Origin: Paraburkholderia sp. ZP32-5 | Lineage (GTDB): Bacteria; Pseudomonadota; Gammaproteobacteria; Burkholderiales; Burkholderiaceae | Direction: 5' to 3' | Length of the DNA: 64,000 bases | Assembly: GCF_021390495.1 (NCBI RefSeq) | Contig: NZ_JAJEJP010000002.1 | Location: forward strand, 1,984,001 to 2,048,000 | Shown here: piece after piece, positions 43,145 to 60,057 of the stretch | Numbering within the stretch: position 1 is the stretch's first letter | Layout of the letters: each line of letters starts with the position of its first letter | The notes under the pieces: model-generated | What the model saw: only the letters and a program-made list of their open reading frames with translations | Databases searched by the model: none | What the model was told of the DNA's origin: nothing | Made by a program: the position numbers and the translations under genes

Positions 43145-43248
43145 CGGTATTCGTTTGTCGAACTTATCCTCCAGAAATAACTGTCGCCGCGGCTCGAAAA
43201 ATGCGGTGCCACGCAAACGGCTTTTTTCATCGTCATGGGAGCGACATC

Positions 43249-44226
43249 ATGAAGATCTGTGTCTTCGGAGCGGGAGCGATTGGCGGTTTGATGGGCGTGC
43301 AACTGGCGCGCGCCGGCGCGGATGTGAGCTTTATCGCGCGTGGCCCGCATCTGGCCGCGATGAAAGAGCATGGCGCGCGGCTGATCATGGACGGCGAAAC
43401 GATCAGCGCACCGGTGCGCTGCACGTCCGATCCGCGTGAGCTCGGTGTGCAGGACCTGGTGATCATCACGCTAAAGGCGCATTCGCTGCCCGGTGTCGTC
43501 GATGCGATGCAGCCGCTGCTCGGCAAGCACACGGCGATCGTCACCGGCGTCAACGGCATTCCGTACTGGTACTTCTATCAGCATGGCGGACGCTTCGCCG
43601 GCACGCGGCTCACGAGCATCGATCCGGACGGCAGCCAATGGACCAAGCTCGGACCTGAACGCGCGATCGGCTGCGTGCTGTATCCGGCCGCAGAGATCGT
43701 CGAGCCCGGCGTAATCAAGCATGTGTATGGCAAGAAATTCCCGATCGGCGAACCGAGCGGCGAGCGCACACCGCGCATTCAGCAATTTCACGAGATCATG
43801 CAAGCGGCAGGTTTCGAAGCACCGATTCGCGACAACATTCGCGATGAAATCTGGCTCAAGCTGTGGGGCAATCTGTGCTTCAACCCGATCAGCGCACTGA
43901 CGCACTCGACGCTCGATGTACTGACCAGCGATCCCGGCACGCGCGCGGTGTCACGCACGATGATGCTCGAAGCACAACGTATTGCCGAGCAGTTCGGTGT
44001 GAATTTCCGTGTCGACGTGGAAAAGCGCATCAATGGAGCGGGTGCGGTTGGCGCGCATAAGACATCGACATTGGTCGACCTGGAGAATCGCCGTCCGATG
44101 GAAATCGATCCGTTGCTGACAGTCGTGCAGGAAATGGGCCGTCTGGTTGCCGAACCGACGCCGACGATCGACGTAGTACTCGCACTGATCAAGCTGCGCG
44201 AGAAAATGGCCTTACAGGGCGCTTGA
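43249..44226 (+). CDS. panE: Ketopantoate reductase-family protein (PanE-like)
   Basis: A 325-residue NADPH-dependent reductase. The N-terminal Rossmann motif is FGAGAIGGLMGVQLA; the C-terminal domain has the catalytic Lys region RDEIWLKLWGNLCFNPISAL and the conserved Asn/Ser/Glu segment (ENRRPMEIDPLL). PanE reduces 2-dehydropantoate to pantoate for CoA synthesis, but extra PanE paralogs in oxalate-using bacteria (PanE2 of Methylobacterium) act as oxalyl-CoA reductase. The location beside an oxalate/formyl-CoA locus and the shared upstream motif (43131) favour a specialised role. ATG 43249 has GGAG 7 nt upstream; codons from 43201 are not used. Confidence 0.85.
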   Translation: MKICVFGAGAIGGLMGVQLARAGADVSFIARGPHLAAMKEHGARLIMDGETISAPVRCTSDPRELGVQDLVIITLKAHSLPGVVDAMQPLLGKHTAIVTGVNGIPYWYFYQHGGRFAGTRLTSIDPDGSQWTKLGPERAIGCVLYPAAEIVEPGVIKHVYGKKFPIGEPSGERTPRIQQFHEIMQAAGFEAPIRDNIRDEIWLKLWGNLCFNPISALTHSTLDVLTSDPGTRAVSRTMMLEAQRIAEQFGVNFRVDVEKRINGAGAVGAHKTSTLVDLENRRPMEIDPLLTVVQEMGRLVAEPTPTIDVVLALIKLREKMALQGA

Positions 44227-44307: not shown

Positions 44308-45762
44308 TTATTGATCGATCGCGAGCCACACCGCTTTCGGCTCGGTGAAGTTCTCGATCGCCACGTCGCCGTGCTCGCGGCCGAAACCCGAATCTCCGGA
44401 GCCGCCCCACGGCAGACGCACATCGGTATAGCCATAGGTATTGATCCACACGGTGCCCGCCTTCAGATCGCGCGCAACGCGATGCACCCGGCCGAGATCC
44501 GCGCTCCACACGCCGGCCGCGAGACTATACGCGGTGCCGTTGGCGATTCTGAGCGCATCGGCTTCGTCGTTGAAACGGATCACGCTGGCCACCGGCCCGA
44601 AGATCTCTTCCTGCGAAATACGCATTTCGTGCTCGACATTGGCAAACACGGTCGGCTCGACGAAAAAGCCGCGCTCGCCGACGCGCGCACCGCCTGTGAC
44701 AAGTGACGCGCCTTCCGAGCGCCCGGTATCGACATAGCCGAGCACCGTCTTCATCTGCGCGGCGGAAATCAGCGGCCCCATCGAGGTTTCCTTCGCCGAC
44801 GGATCGCCGACCTTGATCGACTTCGCGCGCGCGGCCAGACGTTCGACGACTTCGTCATACACGTCGCGATGCGCAAGAATCCGCGAGCCCGCGGAGCACA
44901 CCTGGCCCGTATTGAAGAACACGCCGGACGCGGCGGCGCGCACCGCATTGTCGAGATTCGCATCGGCGAAAATCACGTTCGCCGACTTGCCGCCAAGCTC
45001 CAGCGTCACGCGTTTGAAGTTGCCCGCCGCGCCTTGCAGAATGCCTCGGCCGACCGAAGGCGAACCGGTGAACGTTACTTTATCGATGCCCGGATGCGAG
45101 ACCAGCGCATCGCCGACCACACTGCCCTTGCCGGTCACGATATTCAGCACGCCCGGCGGCACGCCTGCTTCGAGCGCGAGTTCGCCGATGCGCAACGCGG
45201 TGAGCGGCGTGATCTCCGCGGGCTTGACGATCAGCGTGCAGCCGCACGCGAGCGCCGGCGCGATCTTCCACATGCCGATCATCAGCGGAAAATTCCACGG
45301 CACGATCGCGGCGACCACGCCAACCGGCTCGCGCAACGTGTACGTCAACGCATCGGGACGGGTCGGCACGACCTGGCCGTTGATCTTGTCGCACCAGCCC
45401 GCGTAATACTCGACCGTATCGATCGCGGCGGGAATGTCCTGGCGCATCACCGCGGAAATCGGTTTGCCGCCGTCGAGACTTTCGAGCGCGGCGAGTTCTT
45501 CGAGATTGGCGCGCATCAGACCGGCGAGCCGCTGCAGAATGCGCCCACGTTCAGCGGCTCGGATCGAGTTCCACACCTTCAGCGCGCTGCGCGCCGCGCG
45601 CACCGCGGTATCCACATCGGCCGCGCTGCCTTGCGCCACTCGTGCGATCGGCTCTTCGGTGGCCGGATTGATATCGACGGAATATTCCCCGGTGCCTGGC
45701 GGCAGGCGCTTACCGTCGATCAGCAGATCATGGTGCCTGAGGTCGGTTTGAGTTTCCATCAT
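44308..45762 (-). CDS. NAD(P)-dependent aldehyde dehydrogenase
   Basis: A 484-residue ALDH-superfamily enzyme that oxidises an aldehyde to the acid. Visible: the coenzyme block VVAAIVPWNFPLMIGMWK, the Gly-rich turn FTGSPSVGRGI, the general base Glu in TLELGGKSANV, the catalytic Cys in FFNTGQVCSAGSR, and the late motif SQEEIFGPVASVIRF. Length and end (ENFTEPKAVWL) resemble betaine- or gamma-aminobutyraldehyde-type dehydrogenases, but substrate is not decidable. Two in-frame ATGs (45762, 45759) follow an AAGGAG. It shares a strand with a LysR gene 88 bp upstream and lies in the formyl-CoA locus. Confidence 0.92.
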   Translation of the reverse strand: MMETQTDLRHHDLLIDGKRLPPGTGEYSVDINPATEEPIARVAQGSAADVDTAVRAARSALKVWNSIRAAERGRILQRLAGLMRANLEELAALESLDGGKPISAVMRQDIPAAIDTVEYYAGWCDKINGQVVPTRPDALTYTLREPVGVVAAIVPWNFPLMIGMWKIAPALACGCTLIVKPAEITPLTALRIGELALEAGVPPGVLNIVTGKGSVVGDALVSHPGIDKVTFTGSPSVGRGILQGAAGNFKRVTLELGGKSANVIFADANLDNAVRAAASGVFFNTGQVCSAGSRILAHRDVYDEVVERLAARAKSIKVGDPSAKETSMGPLISAAQMKTVLGYVDTGRSEGASLVTGGARVGERGFFVEPTVFANVEHEMRISQEEIFGPVASVIRFNDEADALRIANGTAYSLAAGVWSADLGRVHRVARDLKAGTVWINTYGYTDVRLPWGGSGDSGFGREHGDVAIENFTEPKAVWLAIDQ

Positions 45763-45850: not shown

Positions 45851-46843
45851 CTAGGGTTCATGCAAAAGACTGCCGCCCTGCGTTACGGGCGGCCAGGCGA
45901 AGGTTGGCGCAAGCGGGCTCGCGTTATCGCCGCACGCGCCGCTATGTACAGGCGCATGCACGGCTGCCGTGAACTGCGCCCAGGCCGCCGCCGCATTCGG
46001 ACGCAGCGAACGGTTGCGTCGATGCGCAAGCACAGTGGTGAGCGTCGCTTCGGGAAGCAGCGGACGGCTGATCAGCGCAGCATTCGGTAACGGGCAGTAG
46101 GCATCGACCGGCAGGATGCCGATGCCCAGACCCAGTTCGACCATTCGCGTTACCGCCGCGACGTGCCCGAGTTCCTGTATCGGTCTGCGTTTCAATTCAT
46201 GCGCGACGAGGCTCGGTTCGAGTGCCGCGCGCACGCCCGTGTCGGCATTGAGCGTAATCAGCGGCCATTCGCGCAACTCGCGCCATGCGACGCTATCGCG
46301 CCGCGCGAGCGGATGCGTGGATGGCATCACCGCATGAAACGGGGTGGTGAAAAGAACTTGCGCATGCAACAGGTGGCGATCGAACGGCTCGGTCATCGAC
46401 ACTACGCCGAAGTCCACCTCGCCGTGCTCGACGCTCGCGAGTGCACCGCCTTGCGGCTGATCCCGAACCGACACCATCAGTTCGGGAAACGCGCGCGCGC
46501 AGCGTGCGAGCGCGTGCGGCACCCAGCCTGACGACAGCACGGGATTGCTCGCCAACACCACGACGCCTGTATGGCCATCGTGCGCGGCGCGCTCTTCGAG
46601 CAAGGTCAATTCGATTTCGTCGAGCAGGCCGCCGATTCTTCGCTCAAGGCTCGCACCCGCCTTCGTCAGTTCGACCTGACGCGTGGTGCGGTCGAACAGC
46701 TTCAGTTCAAGCGCCTCTTCGAGTTCGCGCACGCAACGGCTCACCGCCGATTGCGTCAGATCGAAGTCGCGCGCGGCACGCGTAAAACTTCGCTCACGCG
46801 CGACCGCAACGAACACCTTGAGTTGCTGCAGCGAAACATTCAT
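45851..46843 (-). CDS. LysR-family transcriptional regulator
   Basis: A 330-residue LTTR. The DNA-binding HTH is FTRAARDFDLTQSAVSRCVR (residues about 20-39) with LKLFDRTTRQVELTKAG after it. The effector domain spans about 90-295, and an extra ~35-residue Ala/Pro-rich tail follows. It sits between the ALDH gene and the OxlT-type antiporter gene, all on the minus strand, so it may control either. No SD is clear before ATG 46843. The ligand is unknown. Confidence 0.87.
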   Translation of the reverse strand: MNVSLQQLKVFVAVARERSFTRAARDFDLTQSAVSRCVRELEEALELKLFDRTTRQVELTKAGASLERRIGGLLDEIELTLLEERAAHDGHTGVVVLASNPVLSSGWVPHALARCARAFPELMVSVRDQPQGGALASVEHGEVDFGVVSMTEPFDRHLLHAQVLFTTPFHAVMPSTHPLARRDSVAWRELREWPLITLNADTGVRAALEPSLVAHELKRRPIQELGHVAAVTRMVELGLGIGILPVDAYCPLPNAALISRPLLPEATLTTVLAHRRNRSLRPNAAAAWAQFTAAVHAPVHSGACGDNASPLAPTFAWPPVTQGGSLLHEP

Positions 46844-46873: not shown

Positions 46874-48229
46874 TTATTCGCCCGTCTGCTCGGGCCAGTG
46901 ACTCATCCGCGACGCGTTGCCGTTGCCGCTTCCCGCCATCGCGAGCACGCCCTGCTGCTGCGGTTCATTGTGCGATTCGATAAAGCGCCGGCGCATCGGC
47001 TCGAGGATGAATTTCGCCGAGATGCCCGCGACGATCGTGATCACGGCGGAGACGATGAAGACCAGGTTCCAGCCGCCCGTCGCCGCCAGTATCGACGCGA
47101 TCGGCACCACCAGCGAAGCCGTGCCTTTCGCGGTGTACAGCGTACCGGCATTGGCTGCCGCATACCGGCTGCCGAACGTATCGGCGCAAGTCGCCGGGAA
47201 GATCGAGAAGATCTCGCCCCAGAACAGGAAGATCAACGCGGCGAACACCATGAACGCATACGGATTGCTGCCGAATTGCATCATGCCGAGCAGCGCGAGA
47301 CCTTCGCCGATAAAGATCATGAACATCGTGTTTTCACGGCCGATCTTGTCCGAAATGAAACCGCACAGCGGACGCGTCAGGCCGTTGAAGATGTTATCGA
47401 TCGACAACGTGAGCGTCAGCAGCGGCAACGTCGCGCCGAAGACCGTCATCGGAATGCGGGCAAGGCCCCAGTCTTTCGCGATCGGCCCGATCTGCGCGGT
47501 GGCCATCAGACCGCCCGCCGCGACCGCGACGAACGACGCATACATCACCCAGAACACCGGCGTGCGGATCATCTGCCGCGCCGGGAAGTCGACCTTCGAC
47601 ACCACGAACTTCGTTTTGCGCGCCGCCTGCTGCCGCAACATCGGACGAATCAACAGCATCGCGAGCAGCAGAATGCTGATCCCCTGCACGAGGCCGAAGA
47701 AAAAGAACGTGTCCTCATAGCCGCGGCGCGTGATCATGTTCGCAATCGGAATTACCGTCAGCGCGGCGCCCGCGCCGAAACCCGCGGCCGTCAGACCCGC
47801 GGCGAGACCGCGCCGGTCGGGGAACAGTTTCAGCGCATTGCCGACGCAGGTGCCGTACACGCCGCCCGCGCCTATGCCGCCGATCACCGCCGCAACGTAC
47901 AGCGTGCCGAGTGTGGTCGCCTGCGAATTGAGCACCCACGATAGGCCCGCGCAGATCGCGCCGCCCGCCACCACCGGACGCGGGCCGAATTTATCGACGA
48001 GCCAGCCTTCGAACGGCACCAGCCATGTCTCGGTCAGGATGAAGATCGAGAATGCGAGCTGGATCGACGCCTCGCTCCAGTTATGCCGCGCATGCATCGG
48101 CGCCACGAACAACGTCCACGCATATTGCAGATTCGCCACCAGCGCCATGCACACCATGCCGATGACCAGTTGCCACCACCGATTCCGCCAGAACGTGCCG
48201 CCGGTTGTTTGCTGGGTGATATTGTCCAT
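46874..48229 (-). CDS. oxlT: Oxalate/formate antiporter, OxlT-type MFS (OFA family)
   Basis: A 451-residue 12-helix inner-membrane transporter of the OFA family. It begins FWRNRWWQLVIGMVCM, has NLQYAWTLFVAPM in helix 1 and GVYGTCVGNALKLFPDRRG in loop 4-5. In the helix-11 region the block LYTAKGTASLVVP keeps the lysine matching Lys355 of Oxalobacter OxlT, which binds the oxalate carboxylate, so dicarboxylate (oxalate) exchange with formate is a reasonable prediction. ATG 48229 is preferred over GTG 48244 because GGAG and AAGG lie between them. It is divergent from a LysR gene (48654) that probably controls it. Confidence 0.9.
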   Translation of the reverse strand: MDNITQQTTGGTFWRNRWWQLVIGMVCMALVANLQYAWTLFVAPMHARHNWSEASIQLAFSIFILTETWLVPFEGWLVDKFGPRPVVAGGAICAGLSWVLNSQATTLGTLYVAAVIGGIGAGGVYGTCVGNALKLFPDRRGLAAGLTAAGFGAGAALTVIPIANMITRRGYEDTFFFFGLVQGISILLLAMLLIRPMLRQQAARKTKFVVSKVDFPARQMIRTPVFWVMYASFVAVAAGGLMATAQIGPIAKDWGLARIPMTVFGATLPLLTLTLSIDNIFNGLTRPLCGFISDKIGRENTMFMIFIGEGLALLGMMQFGSNPYAFMVFAALIFLFWGEIFSIFPATCADTFGSRYAAANAGTLYTAKGTASLVVPIASILAATGGWNLVFIVSAVITIVAGISAKFILEPMRRRFIESHNEPQQQGVLAMAGSGNGNASRMSHWPEQTGE

Positions 48230-48602
48230 GAGCCTTGTCTCCACTATTTATTTAGTGCAGCCGGCCTAAGCGCCGTGCTGGATGCGTACCACCTTATTGT
48301 TATGTCCGAAAATACTTCGCTGTTCCGGAAGATTGAAAATTGGTGCCGCGTAGTGCGCTTTCGCAAAGCGTCCGACTCGAATTTCTCAAAGCGAATTCTT
48401 TCTTTATTCCGATCAGAGTCGCCCGCGCCGGCGGTAAGCATTACAGCCTATATCCCGCTATTTAGTGCGCTGTACCGCACATCTTTGCGTTAACCCGAGT
48501 ACTTTGCCCGCATTAGGCAAATATCACTGAATACTTCATCGAGTACTACGACGGCAATTTCGCAAGCTATAAGATGCATGCTAGGGTCAATGCTGAATTA
48601 CT
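48230..48602. other. Divergent intergenic region between oxlT and lysR
   Basis: About 370 bp, AT-richer than its surroundings, between the divergent oxlT and lysR genes (the LysR dyad itself is annotated separately at its right end). It contains several TACTT/ATACTT and TTTAGTGC direct elements (TTTAGTGC at 48251 and 48461) but no gene. It should carry the oxlT promoter. Confidence 0.4.
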
Positions 48603-48653: not shown

Positions 48654-49601
48654 ATGACGATGCGCAATGCGACTCTGCGGCAACTGAAGGTCTTTGAAAC
48701 GGTCGCGCGGCACCTCAGTTTTTCGCGCGCCGCCGAGGAATTGCATCTGACGCAGCCGGCCGTTTCGACTCAGGTCCGGCAACTGGAAGACCATGCCGGA
48801 TTGCCGCTTTTCGAGCAGCTCGGCAAAAAGATCTATCTGACGCCGGCCGGCACCGAAATGCTGCACTACAGCCGCGCGATCATGCAGCAGTTCCATGAAG
48901 TCGACGAAGCGATGAGTCAGTTGAAAGGCGTCTCCGGCGGCAAGCTCAATGTCGCGGTAATCAGCGCGGGCGACTACTTCTTTCCGCGGCTGCTGGCCGA
49001 ATTCACGCGCCGTTATTCGGGTGTCGATCTGAATCTCGCGGTCCACAATCGCGAAGAACTGCTGCATCAACTCGCGACCAATCAGACCGATCTTGCCGTC
49101 ATGGTGCGTCCGCCGCACGAAACCGACGCGACCAATGAACCGTTTGCGCCGCATCCGTACGTGATCGTCGCGGCGCCCACGCATCCGCTTGCGCACAAAC
49201 GCAACATCAAGTTCAGCCAGCTCGCGAACGAAGCGTTCATCGTGCGCGAGCGCGGCTCGGACACGTGGAATTCGATGGAAGAAGGCTTTGCCGGACGACT
49301 GTCCAATCTGAAGATTGCCATGGAGATCAAAAGTACCGAGACGATCAAGCAGGCAGTGATTGCCGGAATGGGCATTGCATTCCTGTCCGCGCATACGATC
49401 AGCCTCGAATTGCAATTGGGTCATCTGGTTGTACTCGATGTCGAGAGCTTTCCGGTCATGCTGAACTGGTATGTCGTGCATCGCAAGAATAAACGGCTGC
49501 CGCCGGTCGCGGTTGCCTTCAAACGCTTCCTGATGGAGGAAGGCGCGAATCTGATCGAGAAGATCACTCGCGTGAAGGAACTGAGCGTGCATAAGTCGTA
49601 G
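48654..49601 (+). CDS. LysR-family regulator (CbbR-like), likely regulator of oxlT
   Basis: A 315-residue LTTR. The N-terminal HTH is FSRAAEELHLTQPAVSTQVR, followed by LPLFEQLGKKIYLTPAG, a sequence style close to CbbR/CysB-like regulators of central carbon genes. The effector domain covers about 93-300 (LNVAVISAGDYFFPRLLAEF). It is divergent from oxlT and has a good T-N11-A site just upstream, implying autoregulation and control of oxlT. Shared motif copies suggest that it also acts on the panE-like gene (43249) and the 104-residue gene just downstream (49698). ATGs at 48654 and 48660 are possible starts. Confidence 0.9.
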   Translation: MTMRNATLRQLKVFETVARHLSFSRAAEELHLTQPAVSTQVRQLEDHAGLPLFEQLGKKIYLTPAGTEMLHYSRAIMQQFHEVDEAMSQLKGVSGGKLNVAVISAGDYFFPRLLAEFTRRYSGVDLNLAVHNREELLHQLATNQTDLAVMVRPPHETDATNEPFAPHPYVIVAAPTHPLAHKRNIKFSQLANEAFIVRERGSDTWNSMEEGFAGRLSNLKIAMEIKSTETIKQAVIAGMGIAFLSAHTISLELQLGHLVVLDVESFPVMLNWYVVHRKNKRLPPVAVAFKRFLMEEGANLIEKITRVKELSVHKS

Positions 49602-50092: not shown

Positions 50093-51055
50093 TTAGCGAC
50101 GCGTCGTCAAATGAGCCGGCCGTCTGCGCGTGCACTCGCGCTGACGGCCATTGCCGCGTCTGCCGTCGCCGAGGCCGAGACCGCGACGATGCGGGTAAGC
50201 ACTCGTGCGCACGATGCCAGATTCGGCATCGCGCAACGTCCACGCCGGTTCTTCTCCGCCATGCCATTCGAGGTTCGATAGCAGACCACGCTCGCCGACG
50301 AGTTTGCCGGCGCTCAGGCCATCGCTGCGCGCGGCAAATGCATGGATATGCAAAGTACAGCCGTCGCCAACCGTTGCGTGCACAGCTTCGCCCACGCCCC
50401 CACGGCTCACCATCAGATGCACCCCCATCGCGGCGGCCAGCGCGCTCATCGCGAGCAACGCGGCGAGTCCGACAGGCTGGGCCTGCTCAGTGACGAACCC
50501 GTAGCCGAGCCAGCCGCATAACAGCACCGCGAACAGATTGACGACATGATGACCCGGACGCGCAACCGCTTCGAGTTGCAGCGCACCGCGCAGCTTGCAG
50601 AACGCAATCGCGGACGCCGCGAAAATCAGCGCGCCGATAAACACCGCTGCGTAAAGCTCGATGCGCTCAGTGTTGGCGCGCGCCACCACCGACAGATAAC
50701 GCGCCACGCCCACCGACACGACCGCCAAACCCATGCCGCTGCCGAGCAACGCGACGAGTCCCGGCCGGCGTGTCAGATCGCAGCCGCGCGCGCGCCATGC
50801 GCCGAGCGCGCTGCCGGCCACGGCCGCGTCGATCACATTGAGGCTGGCACCCAGACCCGCCGCGAGCATCGCGACAAGTACCGACGACAACACACCCGCG
50901 CACCAGTAGGGCCGCTGCATCGAGCGCCAGCTGAACTGCCGTTGTCCGATCGCGGCCAACGCCGCCGTCAGCACCGCGACCGACGCTGCGGCCATAGCCG
51001 CCGCGAGCGGCACGCCCACGCTCATCCACACGGCACTTCCACCGGCTTGCGGCAT
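50093..51055 (-). CDS. Truncated PntB-like membrane protein (transhydrogenase beta, dII part only)
   Basis: A 320-residue protein. Residues ~15-215 align by eye with the membrane domain of NAD(P) transhydrogenase subunit beta: LVALLGSGMGLAVVSVG (PntB LVAILHSFVGLAAVLVG), AVFIGALIFAASAIAFCKLRG (in part) and a late AALLAMSALAAAMGVHLMVS. The proton-channel His91 of E. coli PntB is Gly here, and the NADP(H)-binding domain III is absent; the last ~100 residues are unrelated, polar and Arg-rich. It cannot be a working PntB. ATG 51055 has GGAGG 7 nt upstream, so it is probably still translated. It lies 96 bp downstream of the FAH-family gene in the frc operon strand. Confidence 0.72.
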   Translation of the reverse strand: MPQAGGSAVWMSVGVPLAAAMAAASVAVLTAALAAIGQRQFSWRSMQRPYWCAGVLSSVLVAMLAAGLGASLNVIDAAVAGSALGAWRARGCDLTRRPGLVALLGSGMGLAVVSVGVARYLSVVARANTERIELYAAVFIGALIFAASAIAFCKLRGALQLEAVARPGHHVVNLFAVLLCGWLGYGFVTEQAQPVGLAALLAMSALAAAMGVHLMVSRGGVGEAVHATVGDGCTLHIHAFAARSDGLSAGKLVGERGLLSNLEWHGGEEPAWTLRDAESGIVRTSAYPHRRGLGLGDGRRGNGRQRECTRRRPAHLTTRR

Positions 51056-51151: not shown

Positions 51152-51955
51152 TTACTGCACTGCCGCCTTCGACGCTTCGCCCGGCGCGGCGGCGCTCAAG
51201 CTATTGGTCAGCGTGCCGATGCCGTCGATCGTGACCGACACCGTTGCGCCGTCCTTGATCGAGCCGACCCCGAGCGACGTTCCGCACGCGATCACATCAC
51301 CGGGCTCGAGCGTCAGATCCTGCGAAATCAGACTCACCTGCTCGGCTGGCGAAAAAACCATATCGGCGAGCGGATAGTTCTGCCGCTCGACGCCGTCGAG
51401 CGTCGTCACCAGATGCGCGTGCTGCCACGCGAAGCCGGAGACGATGGCCGGCCCGATGCAGCAGAACGTATCGAATCCTTTGGCGCGGCACCACTGCGGA
51501 AAATGCGGATTCTCGTTCAGCAGATCGGCGGCGGTCACGTCGTTGACGAGCGTATAGCCGAAAATCGCCGCCTCGGCCTCGCGTATATCGACGTCGCGGC
51601 AACGCTTGCCGATCACGATACCGAGTTCGCCCTCGTAGACGATCTTGCCCGCGTAATGACGCGGCCTGCGGATCGTCTCGCCCGCGCCGATCACCGAGGC
51701 CGCCGGCTTCAGCAGAAACAGCGGATGCGTGGGCACGGGCTTTTCGAGCTTCGCCGCCAGCGCGTGATAGTTGTTCCACAGTGCGACGATCTTGCCGGGC
51801 GCGCATGGCGCCAGCGGCGTCAGCGTACGCATCGACAGCACCGCGCCGGTCGGCACCGGCTGCTCGAGACTTTCGTACTCGTGCAGATAAGCGCCTTCGA
51901 CGCGGCCAAACACGATACCGCCGTCGCTCGACATAAACCGCATCCACGTATCCAT
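51152..51955 (-). CDS. Fumarylacetoacetate hydrolase-family protein
   Basis: A 267-residue metal-dependent hydrolase of the FAHD fold. The Glu metal ligands are in YEGELGIVIGKRCRDV, and the blocks IFGYTLVNDVTAADL, GFDTFCCIGPAIV and LEPGDVIACGTSLGVGS are typical. Members hydrolyse or decarboxylate acylpyruvates and related 2-oxo acids (fumarylpyruvate, oxaloacetate). The real substrate is unknown. GAGGAG lies 6 nt upstream of ATG 51955; 25 bp separate it from frc, so frc and this gene are co-transcribed, which implies a role in the same pathway. Confidence 0.9.
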   Translation of the reverse strand: MDTWMRFMSSDGGIVFGRVEGAYLHEYESLEQPVPTGAVLSMRTLTPLAPCAPGKIVALWNNYHALAAKLEKPVPTHPLFLLKPAASVIGAGETIRRPRHYAGKIVYEGELGIVIGKRCRDVDIREAEAAIFGYTLVNDVTAADLLNENPHFPQWCRAKGFDTFCCIGPAIVSGFAWQHAHLVTTLDGVERQNYPLADMVFSPAEQVSLISQDLTLEPGDVIACGTSLGVGSIKDGATVSVTIDGIGTLTNSLSAAAPGEASKAAVQ

Positions 51956-51980: not shown

Positions 51981-53228
51981 TTAGATCGCGCCGGCCGTGC
52001 GCAATGCGCTGATCTGCTCGGGCGAATAGCCGAGTTCGGCCATCACTTCATCCGTATGTTCGCCGAGCAACGGCGAGCGCTGGACGTCGGTCGGGCTGTC
52101 GGACAGTTTGATCGGATTGCCGACCGTCAGATACTTGCCGCGCTGCGGATGATCGACTTCGACGATCGTGCCGGTCTTGCGCAGCGACGGCTCCGCGGCG
52201 ATCTCCTTCATCGACAGGATCGGGCCGCACGGAATGTCGTGCTTGTTGAGGATCTCCATCGCCTCGAACTTGGTCTTCGTCATCGTCCAGCGTTCGATTT
52301 CGGCGAAGATCTCCTTCAGACGCGGCAAACGCGCGGGCGCGGTCGCGTAGTCAGGGTCCGTCGCCCACTCCTCCTTGCCGATCACATTGCAGATCTTCGC
52401 CCACACCGGCGCCTGCGTGATGAAGTAGATATACGCGTTCGGGTCGGTCTCCCAGCCCTTGCACTTCAGAATCCAGCCAGGCTGCCCGCCGCCCGACGCA
52501 TTGCCCGAGCGCGGCACCGCTTCGCCGAACTCGCCGTTCGGATATTGCGGATACTCCTTCATCACGCCGGTGCGATCGAGCCGCTGCTGATCGCGCAGCT
52601 TCACGCGGCACAGATTCAGCACGCCGTCCTGCATCGCGGCGAGCACGCGCTGACCGCGTCCGCTATGCGTGCGCTGATACAGCGCGGTGACGATGCCGAG
52701 CGCGAGATGCAGGCCGGTGCCGCTATCGCCGATCTGCGCGCCGGTCACCGTCGGCGGGCCGTCGTCGAAACCGGTCGTCGATGCCGCGCCGCCCGCGCAT
52801 TGCGCGACGTTCTCATAGACTTTGCAATCCTCGTACGGTCCAGGCCCGAAGCCCTTGACCGATGCCACGATCATGCGCGGATTGAGTTCCTGAATCCGCT
52901 CCCACGTAAAGCCCATCCGATCGAGCGCGCCCGGTGCAAAGTTCTCGACCAGCACGTCGCATTTGCGAATCAGCGCTTCGAGTACCTGCTTGCCTTCGGG
53001 ATTCTTCGTATCGATCGTCACCGATCGCTTGTTGTGATTGAGCATCGTGAAGTAGAGGCTGTCCACGTCGGGAATATCGCGCAGTTGCTCCCGCGTAATA
53101 TCGCCCGCGCCCGCGCGCTCCACCTTGATCACGTCCGCGCCGAACCACGCGAGCAACTGCGTGCAGGTCGGACCCGATTGCACATGTGTGAAATCGAGGA
53201 TGCGCACACCATCGAGTGCCTTGGCCAT
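51981..53228 (-). CDS. frc: Formyl-CoA:oxalate CoA-transferase (class III)
   Basis: A 415-residue class III CoA-transferase strongly resembling E. coli YfdW and Oxalobacter FRC along its whole length: [35 protein letters not shown], the catalytic Asp in [24 protein letters not shown] and [15 protein letters not shown]. It moves CoA from formyl-CoA to oxalate (or another acid). Two positions that are invariant in the FRCs I recall differ: the Gly loop reads ASGGGQPGW, where others have AGGGGQPGW, and TTGFDDGPP replaces TTGFWDGPP. AGGAG precedes ATG 53228. Its upstream partner is the ThDP enzyme 23 bp away. Confidence 0.93.
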
Positions 53229-53251: not shown

Positions 53252-55015
53252 TTACTTGTACATGGTCTGGTTCTTCGTGCCCGGCGCGTATTCGCGCGGG
53301 TCGACCCAGATATTGACCACCGCCGAGCGGCCGGTGCGATGAATCGCTTCGCGCGCCCGCTGCAACGCGCCGGCGATCTGCGCGGGGTCGCGCACTTCCT
53401 CGCCGTGGCCGCCGAGCATCTCGGCGAATTTGCTGAATGGCACGTCGCTGAGCAGATTGCCGACGTTGCCGCGCTCTTCGCCGTATTTGGCAAGCTGGCC
53501 GTAGCGGATCTGGTTCATCGCCGAGTTATTGCCGATCACCGCGAGATACGGCGCGCCGAAGCGGTTCGCGGTTTCCATGTCGAATGCGGTCATGCCGAAC
53601 GAGCCGTCGCCGTAATAGCAGAGCACTTCCTTGTGCGGATGCGCGAGCTTTGCCGCGAGCGCGAAGCCGGTGCCGACGCCGAGCGAGCCGAGCGCGCCCG
53701 GGTCCATCCATTGGCCGGGGCGGCGCGGGCGCACTGCCTGCGCGGAAATCGTCACGACGTCGCCGCCGTCGCCGATATACACGGTGTCGTCGGACAGAAA
53801 TTCGTTGAGTTCGTAGGCAACGCGATACGGATGAATCGGCGTGCTATCGGAGCGAAGCAGCGGCATCAGCTTTTCGGTCGCGGTCGCTTCGGCGTCGCGC
53901 AACTGCGCCATCCATTTGCGGCGTGCCTGGCGCTTGTCGTCCTTCAGCCGGCCGCTCGCGGCCTGCAGCACCGCGGCGAGAATCGCGCCCGGATCGCCGA
54001 CGAGGCCCAGATCGATATCGCGATTCTTGCCCACCGTGCGGTAGTCCATGTCGATCTGCACCAGCGTCAGTTCCTTGCTGATGCGTTTGCCGTAGCCCAT
54101 GCGGAAATCGAACGGTGTGCCGACAACGATCAGCACATCGGCATTCGCAAAGGCCTGCGAACGCGTGCGGTCGAAGTGATGCGGATCGCCCGGCGGCAAT
54201 AGCCCGCGGCTCGCGCCGTTGAAATAGCCGGGAATCTCGATGCCGCGCAGCAGCGCAATCGCTTCTTCATGGCCGCGCGCGGTCCACACCTGCTGGCCGT
54301 ACAGAATCGCCGGGCGTTCGGCGTTGACCAGAATGTCCGCGAGTTTTTCGATGTCGCGCGGATCGCCGATCGATTTCGTCGACGCGCGATAGCGGCCCGG
54401 TTGCGGCACGATCGCGCGCGTCAGGTCGACTTCGCGGTCGAGCACGTCGCGCGGAATTTCGAGGTAGGAAGGACCGGGCGCGCCGTTGAAGCACTCGCGC
54501 GCGGCCATCGAGATCATGTCCGCGACGCGCTCGGTGCTCGACACGCTGGCGGCGAACTTGGTGATCGGCGCCATGATGTCGACGTGCGGCAGGTCCTGCA
54601 GCGAGCCCATCTTGTGCTGCGTCAGCGCGCCCTGCCCGCCGATATGCAGGATCGGACTCTCCGAGCGAAATGCAGTGGCGATGCCGGTGACCGCGTTGGT
54701 GCAGCCTGGACCGGCGGTCGTCACGACACAGCCGAGCTTGCCGGTCTGGCGCGCATAGCCGTCGGCCGCATGCGCGGCGACCTGCTCATGGCGCACGTCG
54801 ATGATGCGGATGCCTTCGTCGACACAGCCGTCGTAAATATCGATGATGTGGCCGCCGCACAGCGTGAAGATCGTGTCGACCCCTTCGTTTTTCAGCGCCT
54901 TCGCAACCAGATGACCGCCCGACACGACGCCGGCGCCGCGGGTCTTCTGCTTGAGCGTGTCGTCGGCGGTCGTGCTGCCCGTGGCTGGGCTCAGGGATGA
55001 AACAACTGCGGACAT
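53252..55015 (-). CDS. ThDP-dependent lyase/decarboxylase, 2-hydroxyacyl-CoA lyase 2-like
   Basis: A 587-residue thiamine-diphosphate enzyme. Its N-terminal domain has [16 protein letters not shown] and the ThDP-activating Glu77 in [15 protein letters not shown]. The middle domain is nucleotide-binding. The C-terminal domain has the metal/ThDP motif [20 protein letters not shown] ... GNN. The position next to frc suggests oxalyl-CoA decarboxylase, but hallmark Oxc sequence (GDYEEMDQ with the active Tyr-Glu, EGANTLDN, FNNGGIY) is missing. Instead [11 protein letters not shown] and the tail LGGHGEEV resemble human HACL1 and especially ILVBL/HACL2. It probably splits or joins 2-hydroxyacyl-CoA and formyl-CoA plus an aldehyde. 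Acetolactate-synthase-like activity remains possible. AGGAG precedes ATG 55015. Confidence 0.8.
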
Positions 55016-55123: not shown

Positions 55124-55150
55124 TCACATACGGTATGTGATATATCAATG
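55124..55150 (+). promoter_or_regulatory. GntR operator copy 1, upstream of the ThDP gene
   Basis: CACATAC-G-GTATGTG is a perfect 15-bp dyad (55125-55139), followed by ATATATCAATG. GGTATGTGATATATCAA (55132-55148) recurs inverted at 55310-55294 and with two changes at 56512. It lies about 110 bp before the ThDP gene start, so it overlaps the operon promoter region. The FCD-class GntR regulator at 55525 is the obvious binder. Confidence 0.75.
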
Positions 55151-55524: not shown

Positions 55525-56244
55525 TCAATCGAGAAAATCGCAATTGGCTTCGACGAACGTCGCGAGGTCGAGCGAATGCTGGCGCGTGAGCCGCTCAGCG
55601 AGTTCGGTATCGCGCTTCTCGAGCGCCTCGATGATGCGCAGATGATCGACGATCGAACGCGCCGCGCGGTCGCTCTGCGAAATGGTCATGCGCCGGATCG
55701 CGCGCACGTGGATGAAGATGTTCTTGATCGTGTCGAGAATGATCTGCGACTTCGACAGCTCGACGATCGCCTGATGAAACGCAATATTCGCATCCGAATA
55801 TTCGGCGATATGTTCGGCCGGCGTGGTGTCGCGGAAATTGTCGAACATATGGCGCAGCCGGCCAATTTCCTCGTCCGTCGCATGCAGCGTGGCCAGCCGC
55901 GCGGCCATGCTTTCGAGCGCAGCCCACATCTGGATCATTTCGACGATTTCGCGCTTGCTCTTGCGCACGATGTAGATGCCGCGCCGCGGCACCATGCGCA
56001 GGAAACCTTCCTGCTCGAGCAGCGTCATCGCTTCGCGCACCGGCGTGCGACTCACGCCCAGCGATTCGCTGAGCACGCGCTCGTCGAGACGGATTTCTTC
56101 GCGATTCTGGTAGATGTCCGCGTCGGCGATAGCCTGACGCAGCATCGCATACGCCTTGTCGCGCAAGCTCGCGCTCGCGCCGATCGGCTGCAGGGACAGG
56201 GTCAGCGGAGTGGCCACTGCTTCAGTTTGAAGTTCTGACGACAT
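55525..56244 (-). CDS. GntR-family regulator, FCD subclass
   Basis: A 239-residue repressor. The winged HTH covers residues ~30-90 (LSESLGVSRTPVREAMTLLE is the recognition part), followed by GFLRMVPRRGIYIVRKS and an all-helical FCD effector domain (~100-230) with the metal-binding acidic/His residues expected (DANIAFHQAIVE). FCD members bind small carboxylates such as glycolate, lactate or oxalate-derived acids. The three repeated GGTATGTGATATATCAA sites around it are its probable operators, including one upstream of its own transcript (56512). Its start overlaps the end of the 72-residue gene by 23 bp, suggesting coupled translation. Confidence 0.92.
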   Translation of the reverse strand: MSSELQTEAVATPLTLSLQPIGASASLRDKAYAMLRQAIADADIYQNREEIRLDERVLSESLGVSRTPVREAMTLLEQEGFLRMVPRRGIYIVRKSKREIVEMIQMWAALESMAARLATLHATDEEIGRLRHMFDNFRDTTPAEHIAEYSDANIAFHQAIVELSKSQIILDTIKNIFIHVRAIRRMTISQSDRAARSIVDHLRIIEALEKRDTELAERLTRQHSLDLATFVEANCDFLD

Positions 56245-56440: not shown

Positions 56441-56850
56441 GTGTAACTCCGAACGATTGAGGATGCGAATTTCTCAATCATATGCTGCGACGCCGCATTT
56501 TTCAATATTCGGTATGTAGTATATCAATGCATGTTGTTTTCAAGACTATCACTTCACGTTAGCACGCGACAGCGAGGTTAGAGGTTCCATCTCGCGCTGA
56601 CGCTCGGTGTAAACGCTCAAAACGCGCGCTATGCGCGCGGCGGCGTGCGATGATCGCGCATTTTCGACGTGATGCGGATTGTGAGATCCGTGCCGCGTCA
56701 TTAACCTTCCGGACATCCTGCCGCGTAATGAATGCGTCGAGCGCCCCGCCGGCGCCGCGCAATCCCTCGCGACAGCCTGAAAACCCGGCATACGTGCACG
56801 GGGCTGGAGTAAGCGCCGAAGCCGCGGCTTCGTCCAAACGAGGAGACACG
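56441..56850. other. Divergent regulatory gap between gntR unit and MHS transporter
   Basis: About 410 bp. It holds the third GntR operator (56512-56530) and should contain the promoters of both the gntR unit and the MHS transporter. The remainder (56560-56840) is GC-rich, with open frames but no supported gene. Confidence 0.45.
56512..56530 (+). promoter_or_regulatory. GntR operator copy 3
   Basis: GGTATGTAGTATATCAATG matches copies 1 and 2 except for two bases in the middle (GA to AG). It is 72 bp upstream of the small-protein/gntR start and about 320 bp before the MHS transporter, so it could repress either or both. Confidence 0.72.
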
Positions 56851-58170
56851 ATGAGCACCACCCACCCGCAGGCCTCCGCGGCCACCCACCGCAATGCGCG
56901 CAGTCAGGCGCGCAAGGCGGCGCTCGGCAGCTTTATCGGCGCCGTGGTCGACTGGTATGACTTTCTGCTGTACGGCATCGTCGCCGCGCTCGTGTTCAAC
57001 GCCGAGTTCTTCCCGAACGTCGGCCCGGCGATGGGCACGCTCGCCGCGTTCGCCACCTTCGGCGTCGGCTTCCTGTTCCGTCCGCTCGGCGGCTTCGTGT
57101 TCGGCCACTACGGCGACCGGCTCGGCCGCAAGCGCATGCTCGTGCTGACCGTGATGATGATGGGCCTGTCGACGGCCGCGATCGGTCTGCTGCCGTCGTT
57201 TGCAACGATCGGCTGGCTGGCGCCAGTGCTGCTCGTCACGTTGCGGGCGATCCAGGGCTTCGCGGTCGGCGGCGAATGGGGCGGCGCGGCGCTGATGGCG
57301 GTCGAAAGCGCGCCGGAAAAGAAGAAGGCGTTCTATAGCAGCGGCGTGCAGGTCGGCTATGGCGTCGGCCTCGTGCTGTCGACCGGGCTCGTCGCGCTGA
57401 TCAGCCGCTCGATGGACAACGCCGCCTTCCTCAGCTGGGGCTGGCGTCTGCCGTTCGTGTTCAGCGTCGTGCTGGTGCTGATCGCGCTGTGGATCCGCTC
57501 GAGCATGGAAGAATCGCAGGAGTTCGTCGAGAAGGTCGGCAAGCATGGCGAGCATCGCGTGCGTCTGCCGATCGTCGAAGCCCTGCTGCGTCATCCGAAG
57601 GCGTTTCTGCTGATCATCGCGCTGCGCCTCGCCGAGCTGTTCACGATGTATATCGTCACCGCGTTCGCGTTGAGCTATTCGACGACGAACCTGCACATGC
57701 CGCGCGAATTCTTCCTGACCATCGGTCTGGTCGTCGGTGCCATCAGCTGCGTGACGATTCCGTGCTTCGCATGGCTCGCCGATCGCTTCGGCCGCCGCCG
57801 TGTGTACATCGTCGGCGCGCTGGTCGGTATGTTGAGCGCGGTGCCGTTCTTCGTCGCGCTCGAAGCGCGCGCGACCGTGTGGATCGTGATCTTCGCGGTA
57901 TTGCTCGCGAACATCGCGCACGACATGGTGGTCAGCGTGCAGCAGCCGATGTTCACCGAACTGTTCGGTACCGAGTATCGCTATAGCGGCGCGGGCGTCG
58001 GCTACCAGGTGGCGAGCGTGGTCGGCGGCGGTTTCACGCCGTTTATCGCGGTCGCGCTGGTCAGTTTTGCCGGCGGCTCGTGGCATCCGGTAGCGGCCTA
58101 TCTGGCAATCGGCTGCCTGATTTCGGTGCTCGTCGCGGCGCGCATGAAGACCGGCCGCAACATCGACTGA
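56851..58170 (+). CDS. MFS metabolite:H+ symporter (MHS family)
   Basis: A 439-residue, 12-helix proton-coupled importer of organic acids. Hallmarks of the MHS (citrate/alpha-ketoglutarate/KgtP, ShiA) family: VVDWYDFLLYGIVAALVF near the start, GDRLGRKRMLVLTV as motif A in loop 2-3, QGFAVGGEWGGAALMAVE, and WLADRFGRRRVYIVG in the second half. It likely imports the acid processed by the divergent frc/ThDP operon. ATG 56851 has AGGAG 5 nt upstream. A strong terminator follows (58201-58242), so it forms its own transcript. Confidence 0.92.
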   Translation: MSTTHPQASAATHRNARSQARKAALGSFIGAVVDWYDFLLYGIVAALVFNAEFFPNVGPAMGTLAAFATFGVGFLFRPLGGFVFGHYGDRLGRKRMLVLTVMMMGLSTAAIGLLPSFATIGWLAPVLLVTLRAIQGFAVGGEWGGAALMAVESAPEKKKAFYSSGVQVGYGVGLVLSTGLVALISRSMDNAAFLSWGWRLPFVFSVVLVLIALWIRSSMEESQEFVEKVGKHGEHRVRLPIVEALLRHPKAFLLIIALRLAELFTMYIVTAFALSYSTTNLHMPREFFLTIGLVVGAISCVTIPCFAWLADRFGRRRVYIVGALVGMLSAVPFFVALEARATVWIVIFAVLLANIAHDMVVSVQQPMFTELFGTEYRYSGAGVGYQVASVVGGGFTPFIAVALVSFAGGSWHPVAAYLAIGCLISVLVAARMKTGRNID

Positions 58171-58653: not shown

Positions 58654-60057
58654 ATGAGCAGCATTAGCGAGCCGGGCGGCCAGCGAAATTCCGCCCCGTT
58701 CTTTTCCAAACAGGCCACCGTCGCGCAACCGGGCTTTTCACGCTGGATGGTGCCCCCCGCCGCGCTCGCCGTGCATCTGTGCATCGGCCAGGCGTATGCA
58801 TTCTCGGTATTCAACGGACCGCTCACGAAAGTGATCGGCATTACGCAGTCCGCACCCGATGACTGGTCGCTGACCACTCTCGGCTGGATCTTCTCGCTCG
58901 CGATCGTGTTCCTCGGTTTGTCGGCGGCATTCGCCGGCAAATGGCTCGAACACGTCGGCCCGCGCCGCACGATGTTTACCGCCGCGTGCTGTTTCGGCGG
59001 CGGCTTTCTGGTGTCCGCGCTCGGCGTGTATCTGCATCAGATCGTGCTGCTGTATCTCGGCTATGGCGTGATCGGCGGGATCGGGCTTGGCCTCGGCTAT
59101 GTGTCGCCGGTGTCGACGCTGATCCGCTGGTTCCCGGACCGCCGCGGCATGGCGACCGGCATGGCGATCATGGGCTTCGGCGGCGGCGCGATGATCGCCG
59201 CGCCGTTGTCGGTCGCGCTGATGAACCACTTCCATAGCGCCACGAGCGTCGGCGTCGCCGAAACGTTCATCGTGCTCGGCATCGTCTATTTCATCTCGAT
59301 GACGATCGGCGCGCTCGCCATCCGCGTGCCGCCGGCGGACTGGAAGCCGGCCGGCTGGACTCCGCCCGAAGCCGCGACGCATCGCATGATCACGCAAAAC
59401 CACGTGCATATCGATCAGGCGCTGAAGACCCCGCAGTTCTATCTGATCTGGCTCGTGCTGTTCCTGAACGTGACGGCCGGCATCGGCGTGCTCGGCCAGG
59501 CCTCGGTGATGATCCAGGAGAGCTTCAAGAACACGGTAACGGCGGGCGCGGCGGCCGGCTTCGTCGGCTTGCTATCGCTGTTCAACATGGGTGGACGTTT
59601 CGTGTGGTCGTCGGCGTCGGACTGGATCGGCCGCAAGAATACCTACGCCATCTTCTTCGTGCTCGGCGCGGTGCTCTATTACCTGGTACCGACCTTCGCG
59701 GCGAGCGGCCAGATCGCGCTCTTCGTGCTGACCTACTGCATCATCCTGTCGATGTACGGCGGCGGCTTCGCGACGGTGCCGGCCTATCTCGCCGACATGT
59801 TCGGTACGGCCTTCGTCGGCGGCATTCACGGGCGTCTGTTGACCGCGTGGGCCGCGGCCGGCGTCGCCGGTCCGGTGCTGGTCAACTACATCCGCGCGTA
59901 TGAAGTCGCGAACGGCGTCGCCAAAGCGGATGCGTACACGATGACCGTGCACATCATGGCCGTGCTGCTCGTGATCGGCTTTATCTGCAACCTGCTGGTC
60001 AAGCGCGTGGATGACAAACACCACATGACCGACGCACAAGTCGCCAAGGGCGCTTGA
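58654..60057 (+). CDS. OFA-family MFS transporter (oxalate/formate antiporter relative)
   Basis: A 467-residue, 12-helix MFS protein of the OFA family, recognisable from FSRWMVPPAALAVHLCIGQA, AFSVFNGPL, GLGLGYVSPVSTLIRWFPD (loop 4-5) and MGGRFVWSSASDWIGRKN. The helix-11 position that carries Lys355 in OxlT is in TAWAAAGVAGP, where the Lys is replaced by Trp, so oxalate binding as in OxlT is unlikely; monocarboxylates such as formate, lactate or pyruvate fit better. AAGGAG precedes ATG 58654. A 42-codon gene starts 10 bp after its stop and probably encodes a companion subunit. Confidence 0.88.
   Translation: MSSISEPGGQRNSAPFFSKQATVAQPGFSRWMVPPAALAVHLCIGQAYAFSVFNGPLTKVIGITQSAPDDWSLTTLGWIFSLAIVFLGLSAAFAGKWLEHVGPRRTMFTAACCFGGGFLVSALGVYLHQIVLLYLGYGVIGGIGLGLGYVSPVSTLIRWFPDRRGMATGMAIMGFGGGAMIAAPLSVALMNHFHSATSVGVAETFIVLGIVYFISMTIGALAIRVPPADWKPAGWTPPEAATHRMITQNHVHIDQALKTPQFYLIWLVLFLNVTAGIGVLGQASVMIQESFKNTVTAGAAAGFVGLLSLFNMGGRFVWSSASDWIGRKNTYAIFFVLGAVLYYLVPTFAASGQIALFVLTYCIILSMYGGGFATVPAYLADMFGTAFVGGIHGRLLTAWAAAGVAGPVLVNYIRAYEVANGVAKADAYTMTVHIMAVLLVIGFICNLLVKRVDDKHHMTDAQVAKGA

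Follow-up and report, generated by a model that had tools for sequence, protein, structure and literature searches.

We describe a gene for a thiamine diphosphate (ThDP)-dependent enzyme in a 64,000-nucleotide stretch of the genome of Paraburkholderia sp. ZP32-5 (assembly GCF_021390495.1, contig NZ_JAJEJP010000002.1, positions 1,984,001 to 2,048,000; the whole stretch is hereafter the window). The gene, referred to as the ThDP gene, lies at positions 53252-55015 on the minus strand, encodes 587 amino acids with no internal stop, and opens an operon-like run in which frc, a gene of the formyl-CoA:oxalate CoA-transferase family, follows 23 bp downstream and a FAH-family gene 25 bp further. Judging from sequence comparisons, it probably encodes a second, non-orthologous and unrecognised family of oxalyl-CoA decarboxylases (Oxc, or OXC), originating from the side of the ThDP superfamily represented by AcHACL (2-hydroxyisobutyryl-CoA lyase). 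This reading is based on phylogeny, residue differences, exchange with oxc in similar gene clusters, occurrence in genomes having Frc without Oxc, and presence in oxalate-positive strains. Most likely, the reaction is a known one and it is the enzyme family that has gone unrecognised.

We infer the substrate, the reaction and the cycle of the enzyme as follows. The antiporter OxlT would bring in oxalate while exporting formate, Frc would transfer CoA from formyl-CoA to oxalate, and the ThDP enzyme would cleave oxalyl-CoA into CO2 and formyl-CoA, the latter going back to Frc. Both Frc and an oxalate/formate antiporter are encoded together with the ThDP gene. The enzyme probably descends from the AcHACL side, and it is devoid of the helix glutamate that serves hydroxyl deprotonation in those lyases, a step that is needless in decarboxylation. 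Genome context points to oxalate as the substrate, because the gene replaces oxc beside frc, because a GntR regulator and a palindrome are shared with canonical clusters, and because the gene is carried by oxalate-positive strains in which no Oxc was found.

Occurrence relative to canonical Oxc and in oxalate-using strains

Two hundred Burkholderiaceae genomes were scored under the same handles for the ThDP gene, canonical Oxc and Frc, counting full or near-full orthologs (the fragments in G104 and G167 were excluded, and the partial Oxc of G145 was counted as Oxc). Frc was found in 105 of them, canonical Oxc in 82 (one partial) and the ThDP gene in 25. The ThDP gene is present in 21 of the 23 genomes that have Frc without Oxc, in 4 of the 82 that have both, and in none of the 95 devoid of Frc. 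Its association with the absence of Oxc (Fisher p 4.6e-16, a value uncorrected for kinship) has the same direction in each of the four genera carrying the gene, with p of 0.021, 2.6e-5, 0.0017 and 0.095. The respective tables, written as Oxc-negative genomes with/without the gene and then Oxc-positive genomes with/without it, are 3/0 and 3/13, 6/0 and 0/14, 11/1 and 1/6, and 1/1 and 0/19. Among 43 handles picked as bearers of the ThDP gene, where at least three genomes appear twice, 40 have no Oxc, 42 have Frc and 38 have exactly one Frc; a further, partly overlapping draw of 25 bearers has Oxc in 2. Within the window's genus, 37 of 144 genomes hold a full-length copy, and further copies occur in Cupriavidus, Caballeronia, Pandoraea, Thiomonas, Labrys and soil metagenome-assembled genomes (MAGs). 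In the host genome itself (an assembly of 9.09 Mb in four contigs) the ThDP gene is an extra, because a canonical oxlT-oxc-frc set is present elsewhere (Oxc 994 bits, Frc 727 bits).

Oxalate use is on record for several bearers. Table 1 of Kost et al. 2014 (PMC3886118), which scores the halos formed by colonies growing with calcium oxalate as their only carbon source, gives P. tuberum LMG 21444, P. phenoliruptrix LMG 22037 and P. kururiensis LMG 19447 as oxalate-positive. All three, matched by collection number, carry the ThDP gene (L064, L085 and L087, respectively), and their genomes gave neither Oxc at E <= 1e-150 nor OxdC at E <= 1e-20; OxdC was sought at the latter threshold in 14 genomes and found in none. 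The ThDP gene is also present, with no Oxc and no OxdC found, in P. graminis C4D1M (L088) and in P. caledonica NBRC 102488 (L123); provided that these are the Kost strains LMG 18924 and LMG 19076, they fit the same pattern. P. fungorum (L082), matched to the table by species only, has both the ThDP gene and Oxc.

In the same paper (PMC3886118), strain PsJN with an interrupted canonical oxc lost growth on oxalate. This mutant would count against the ThDP enzyme being an Oxc if PsJN carried the gene, an argument that we considered and rejected. G294 is the sole genome among the 144 of the genus to match the paper's forward primer exactly, its match to the reverse primer is exact too, and the amplicon measures 1649 bp (1650 in the paper); from the primers we infer that G294 is PsJN. 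It has no hit to the ThDP gene at E <= 1e-70, so, with this identification, the mutant says nothing against the gene.

Family membership, residues and predicted structure

An earlier note on this DNA held that the gene beside frc is not a canonical Oxc, and the profile scores agree: the ThDP protein reaches 222.7 bits with TIGR03254, the cut-off of which is 739.4. The OXC stretches GDYEE(M/L)DQ, EGAN(T/A)LD and NN(G/N)GIY, seen in the structures 2c31, 2q27 and 7ayg, are missing from the protein, as that note had observed, and the lyase-like motifs it had pointed out, LGGHGEEV included, were found in the translation. The protein passes none of its best 25 NCBIfam models (52 matched), acetolactate synthase models among the 25 included. 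The top score belongs to PRK05858 'acetolactate synthase' (451.6 bits, below the cut-off of 587), and NF058623, the model of AcHACL-type 2-hydroxyacyl-CoA lyases, gives 362.7 bits, under its cut-off of 600. Among solved structures the AcHACL chains 7pt1-7pt4 and 9qz4-9qz7 are the best by sequence (~283 bits), and Foldseek also ranks AcHACL first; identity is ~33-36%. The host genome has 17 further matches to the protein, the best-scoring at 29% identity. AcHACL-type proteins were seen in other records as well. The protein of L060:1471-3207, from Burkholderiaceae, exceeds the NF058623 cut-off (811 bits versus 600) and has relatives in Cupriavidus pinatubonensis and Piscinibacter, and P0170, from a record named Herrania umbratica, shares 91% identity with an AcHACL of actinobacteria and is probably contamination.

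A protein search yielded 7673 relatives, of which the best 120, at least 85% identical, come from Paraburkholderia, Cupriavidus, Pandoraea, Thiomonas and proteobacterial MAGs; the source names of many relatives read 'acetolactate synthase'. A scan of species genomes gave 519 loci that encode relatives; we retained the best 80, and all counts over 80 below refer to this set. These loci are 81-97% identical, belong to beta-, gamma- and alphaproteobacteria and one Acidobacteria-labelled record, and have no internal stop in any of the 80 matched stretches, so the reading frame is not a chance one. The two seed patterns of the scan lie within the ThDP protein, so the scan itself favoured conservation in those stretches to some extent. 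Below the orthologs in the 200 Burkholderiaceae, apart from two fragments of 77%, matches drop to ~35% identity.

In a maximum-likelihood tree of 41 rows, for which the tool warns of long branches, the 13 orthologs included form one clade, joined with the HICL/AcHACL group and with the small, uncharacterised L061/L062 group at 99/97; the order inside this joined group is weak (88/48). OXC and HACL/S make up a separate clade (100/100), the four OXC rows forming a clade of their own (100/100) beside the three HACL/S rows used, and the labelled acetolactate synthases are placed elsewhere. The phylogenetic check suggested in the earlier note bears out a grouping with the AcHACL (HICL) lineage, apart from OXC/HACL-S and from the labelled acetolactate synthases.

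At the residue level, E77 of the ThDP protein retains the glutamate of the OfOXC E56 position, and the GGH and LQD motifs and Q140 are as in the HICL rows. R285 corresponds to the acyl-CoA arginine (ApbHACL R260) common to OXC, HACL/S and HICL rows, an equivalent of which is absent from 13 other aligned paralogs (11 from the host genome and 2 from relatives). The second acyl-CoA arginine position (OXC R408) is A425, and the ADP arginine positions are A179 and P301. The position of AcHACL E493, a glutamate in all 7 HICL rows besides the E493A mutant chain, is I503 in 81 of 81 sequences (the ThDP protein and the 80 loci), and residues 500-507 are invariant in the same set; isoleucine or valine is found at this position in several paralogs, too. 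PMC8760513 describes that OXC decarboxylation requires no such glutamate proton transfer and that human HACL2 (ILVBL) is proposed to use E557, one helix turn past AcHACL E493. Mapped through the spacing given in that paper, the E557 position is G506, again in 81 of 81. With I503 and, by this mapping, G506 invariant, the identification with HACL2 put forward in the earlier note is unsupported. The missing glutamate alone does not exclude lyase activity, because HACL1-type lyases also do without a matching glutamate, water being thought to serve (PMC13327070). AlphaFold predicts a helix at 501-511 (pLDDT 81.2), and a helix is described likewise for AcHACL. The tail QTMYK, found in 79 of the 81 sequences (the 79 that reach the C-terminus), may act as a CoA lid like those of HACL/S.

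Gene clusters and their exchange with oxc

Twenty canonical oxc regions of our own choice were compared by tblastn and form the base of all counts over 20. Thirteen of them contain a gene that shares 70% identity or more with the window's GntR gene, 10 contain a FAH homolog, and 11 contain a second frc, nearer to the window's frc. The gene order of L182 is lysR-oxlT-lysR-panE-gntR-oxc-frc1-frc2-fah, and Caballeronia L103 has the same order with the ThDP gene replacing oxc-frc1 and with sucCD and CoA-synthetase genes inserted. In Pandoraea G072, a genome without Oxc, one copy of the ThDP gene (L209) precedes a canonical-type Frc (88%). This genome has two copies of the ThDP gene (L208 and L209), each adjoining a different frc type. 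Seven regions chosen around window-type frc in Oxc-positive genomes (L197-L199, L201-L203 and L207) keep the cluster without the ThDP gene, and L200, an eighth such region, has a match over 34% of the gene's length. At L204, in G061, gntR, frc and fah are retained with no match to the ThDP gene in between.

The link to frc is tight. Of the 75 ThDP-gene loci with enough sequence, 71 have frc on the same strand at most 400 bp downstream; L137, with an overlap of 12 bp, and L143, which is split between two matches, bring the number to 73; L099 and L139 have no frc within 400 bp downstream. An OxlT-type MFS gene was recognised by clustering of open reading frames in 58/80 loci.

Another shared element is a palindrome, ACATACNGTATGT, which was picked from the upstream set of the ThDP genes and is the longest frequent one among the palindromes tested. 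With at most one mismatch it is found upstream of 31/77 ThDP genes and also in the window (55126-55138). Upstream of canonical oxc it occurs in 2/20 regions with at most one mismatch and in 7/20 with at most two; the corresponding counts in shuffles, made by moving blocks of two bases and not by exact dinucleotide shuffling, are 1 and 15 of 1,940. Among close relatives, the upstream regions do not count as independent. Palindromes of the TGATATATCA type are as frequent upstream of the ThDP gene (37/77) and occur in 2/20 canonical regions. The ACATACNGTATGT-type palindrome is a putative GntR operator.

The features of the window cluster and its surroundings are these:

43201-44226, plus strand: PanE/ApbA-family reductase (NF005089 508 bits, cut-off 223)
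44308-45762, minus strand: aldehyde dehydrogenase, substrate not assignable (passes none of its best 25 NCBIfam models)
45851-46843, minus strand: second LysR-type regulator gene (family from sequence reading)
46874-48244, minus strand: oxalate/formate MFS antiporter, OxlT type (TIGR04259 626.2 bits, cut-off 335)
48654-49601, plus strand: LysR-type regulator gene (family from sequence reading; present at ThDP-gene loci and in some canonical oxc regions)
50093-51055, minus strand: open reading frame with partial, doubtful similarity to the NAD(P) transhydrogenase beta subunit (PF02233 69.5 bits)
51152-51955, minus strand: FAH-family gene (PF01557; the homolog counted above in canonical oxc regions)
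51981-53228, minus strand: frc, formyl-CoA:oxalate CoA-transferase family (TIGR03253 749.6 bits, cut-off 504.2; among solved structures, the top match is E. coli YfdW with 634 bits)
53252-55015, minus strand: ThDP-dependent enzyme, 587 amino acids, proposed non-canonical oxalyl-CoA decarboxylase (profile scores, alignment, tree)
55126-55138, no strand: palindrome ACATACCGTATGT, putative GntR operator (its first base precedes the start of the ThDP gene by 123 bp)
55525-56244, minus strand: GntR/FCD regulator gene, upstream of the ThDP gene (PF00392, PF07729)
56650-58170, plus strand: shikimate-transporter-type MFS, the acid importer of the earlier note (NF007414 827 bits, cut-off 538)
58654-60057, plus strand: L-lactate-type MFS transporter (NF049980 343 bits, cut-off 320)

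The TIGR03253 score confirms frc as a true member of the Frc family, as first read. The formate-type antiporters named in the earlier note are reduced to the one at 46874-48244, which passes the oxalate/formate antiporter model, since the gene at 58654-60057 fits an L-lactate transporter model. The aldehyde dehydrogenase is indeed present, but 6 kb from frc, beyond two LysR-type genes, the transporter and the FAH gene. PanE is found near canonical oxc in some relatives, too, and might be an oxalyl-CoA reductase, a role known from Methylorubrum. The reading frame at 50093-51055 is poorly conserved (51-70% where found in relatives) and is possibly a remnant. Genes for the beta subunit of succinate/malate-CoA ligase start divergently at most 600 bp upstream of the ThDP gene in 19 loci (L087:6567-8673 and 18 others, from Cupriavidus, Caballeronia, P. 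kururiensis and others).

Competing readings and known systems

Several observations weigh against the ThDP enzyme being an Oxc. Four of the 105 Frc-positive genomes, the host included, hold both enzymes, two (G048 and G061) have neither, the Acidobacteria-labelled MAG G218 has the ThDP gene without Frc, and the absence of Oxc is based partly on draft genomes. Window-type frc and fah persist without the ThDP gene. Only Paraburkholderia, Cupriavidus and one unplaced Burkholderiaceae record have the palindrome ACATACNGTATGT with no more than one mismatch, and 31/77 upstream stretches are at least 4 bases off it. In the active site, Y120, E121, Y483, S553 and R408 of OXC are replaced by L139, Q140, I503, G579 and A425, and the ADP arginines are replaced as well; since the OXC residues holding the oxalyl carboxylate are lost, this group would need another binding mode. 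VIA-align fails to separate the candidate families. An NDP (nucleoside diphosphate)-forming acyl-CoA synthetase accompanies the ThDP gene in 44/80 loci versus 0/20 canonical oxc regions, for which a simple swap with Oxc fails to account. Finally, the oxalotrophy of LMG 21444, LMG 22037 and LMG 19447 could rest on an unrecognised route.

The synthetase is one of the arguments for a genuine 2-hydroxyacyl-CoA lyase, which we regard as unlikely. Such an enzyme would split a 2-hydroxyacid, charged with CoA from formyl-CoA through Frc or by a neighbouring ligase, into an aldehyde and formyl-CoA, and oxidation would turn the aldehyde into a shorter acid. In 42 of the 44 loci the synthetase is encoded downstream on the same strand (731 amino acids in L066:12136-14331, copies 71-100% identical), in L099 directly after the ThDP gene, and its top NCBIfam score is for a 4-hydroxybutyrate--CoA ligase model, far under the cut-off (563 of 1300); none is found at the window cluster. 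A CoA ligase (HCL) likewise accompanies AcHACL (PMC7176365). The tree grouping with AcHACL, the GGH motif and Q140 common to HICL, the first Foldseek rank and the aldehyde dehydrogenase in the wider cluster also speak for a lyase. However, the aldehyde dehydrogenase is present in only 17/80 loci, 57 of which 80 reach 9.9 kb downstream, and the catalytic glutamate is missing at both described positions, though HACL1-type enzymes manage with water (PMC13327070). The tight link to Frc, the occurrence complementary to Oxc and the oxalate-positive strains with no Oxc found are further arguments against it. The 2-hydroxyacid shortening cycle envisaged in the earlier note is accordingly unsupported, the helix glutamate being gone (I503, G506) and the context pointing to oxalate.

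It is rather unlikely that the enzyme is a carboligase of an oxalate regulon, which would assimilate glyoxylate or another aldehyde by joining it to a formyl-CoA carbanion made from either oxalyl-CoA or formyl-CoA. HACL/S relatives and an engineered OXC do perform such condensations (PMC11271303, PMC8760513), and genes for PanE reductase and CoA ligase are near in many loci. By itself, however, carboligation leaves unexplained how formyl-CoA would be regenerated for Frc in genomes without Oxc. A bifunctional enzyme, which would decarboxylate oxalyl-CoA and also hand the bound formyl-CoA carbanion to glyoxylate or an aldehyde, with the NDP-forming synthetase conserving or supplying the thioester, seems quite improbable; if true, oxalate carbon would be assimilated by one-carbon extension, and nature would have its own counterpart to the carboligation routes engineered with OXC/HACL. 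A divergent acetolactate-synthase-type enzyme without a CoA substrate, as automatic annotation has it, is highly improbable: many source names, the best NCBIfam score (PRK05858) and the Ile/Val shared with several paralogs at the E493 position favour it, but every such model among the 25 shown scored below cut-off (at best 451.6 versus 587), R285 is absent from all 13 other aligned paralogs, the protein is outside the branch of labelled acetolactate synthases, and a biosynthetic enzyme that does pass the model (L002) is a separate gene.

If the ThDP gene does encode a second Oxc family, oxalate users would be missed or misread, with an oxalyl-CoA decarboxylase concealed under 'acetolactate synthase' names. 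For the oxalyl-CoA routes, one survey of oxalate users treats oxc as the key gene (PMC10192776), and a 2020 analysis of 1396 putative OXC sequences characterises the enzyme as highly conserved (PMC7190790). In an open-access full-text collection, our searches turned up no report of a second Oxc family; one may be in print elsewhere. In soil and plant-associated bacteria lacking Oxc, the family would do the work of the usual enzyme, and it would account for the oxalotrophs without oxc in the Kost table. One and the same reaction would have been reached from the 2-hydroxyacyl-CoA lyase lineage minus the catalytic acid of the lyase, offering a template for formyl-CoA engineering.

Compared with known systems, the ThDP protein is most like AcHACL, which is closest by solved-structure sequence, by Foldseek rank and in the tree, and with which it shares the motifs GGH and L-Q-D, a helix that follows the ThDP loop (predicted here at H501-511) and the lack of the ADP arginine pair. 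It differs from AcHACL in its low identity (~33-36%), in I503 for E493, in A425 for the second acyl-CoA arginine, in scoring 362.7 against the cut-off of 600, and in being linked to Frc and OxlT instead of a 2-hydroxyisobutyrate cluster. Canonical Oxc (2c31, 2q27, 7ayg; TIGR03254) is alike in cluster position, in the company of Frc, OxlT and GntR, in R285 and in its complementary distribution, whereas the TIGR03254 score (222.7 versus 739.4 bits), the active-site residues and ADP arginines missing here, and the tree branch set the two apart. HACL/S of the HACL1 type (8vza-8vzk, 6xn8) have the same ThDP- and CoA-dependent fold and a glutamine at the ApbHACL Q117 position; unlike the ThDP protein, their three rows group with OXC and keep the ADP arginines, and they are described as being without the helix (PMC11271303). 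Human HACL2 (ILVBL) has, by description, an AcHACL-like helix (PMC8760513), but its E557 position, mapped through the spacing in that paper, is G506 in the ThDP protein.

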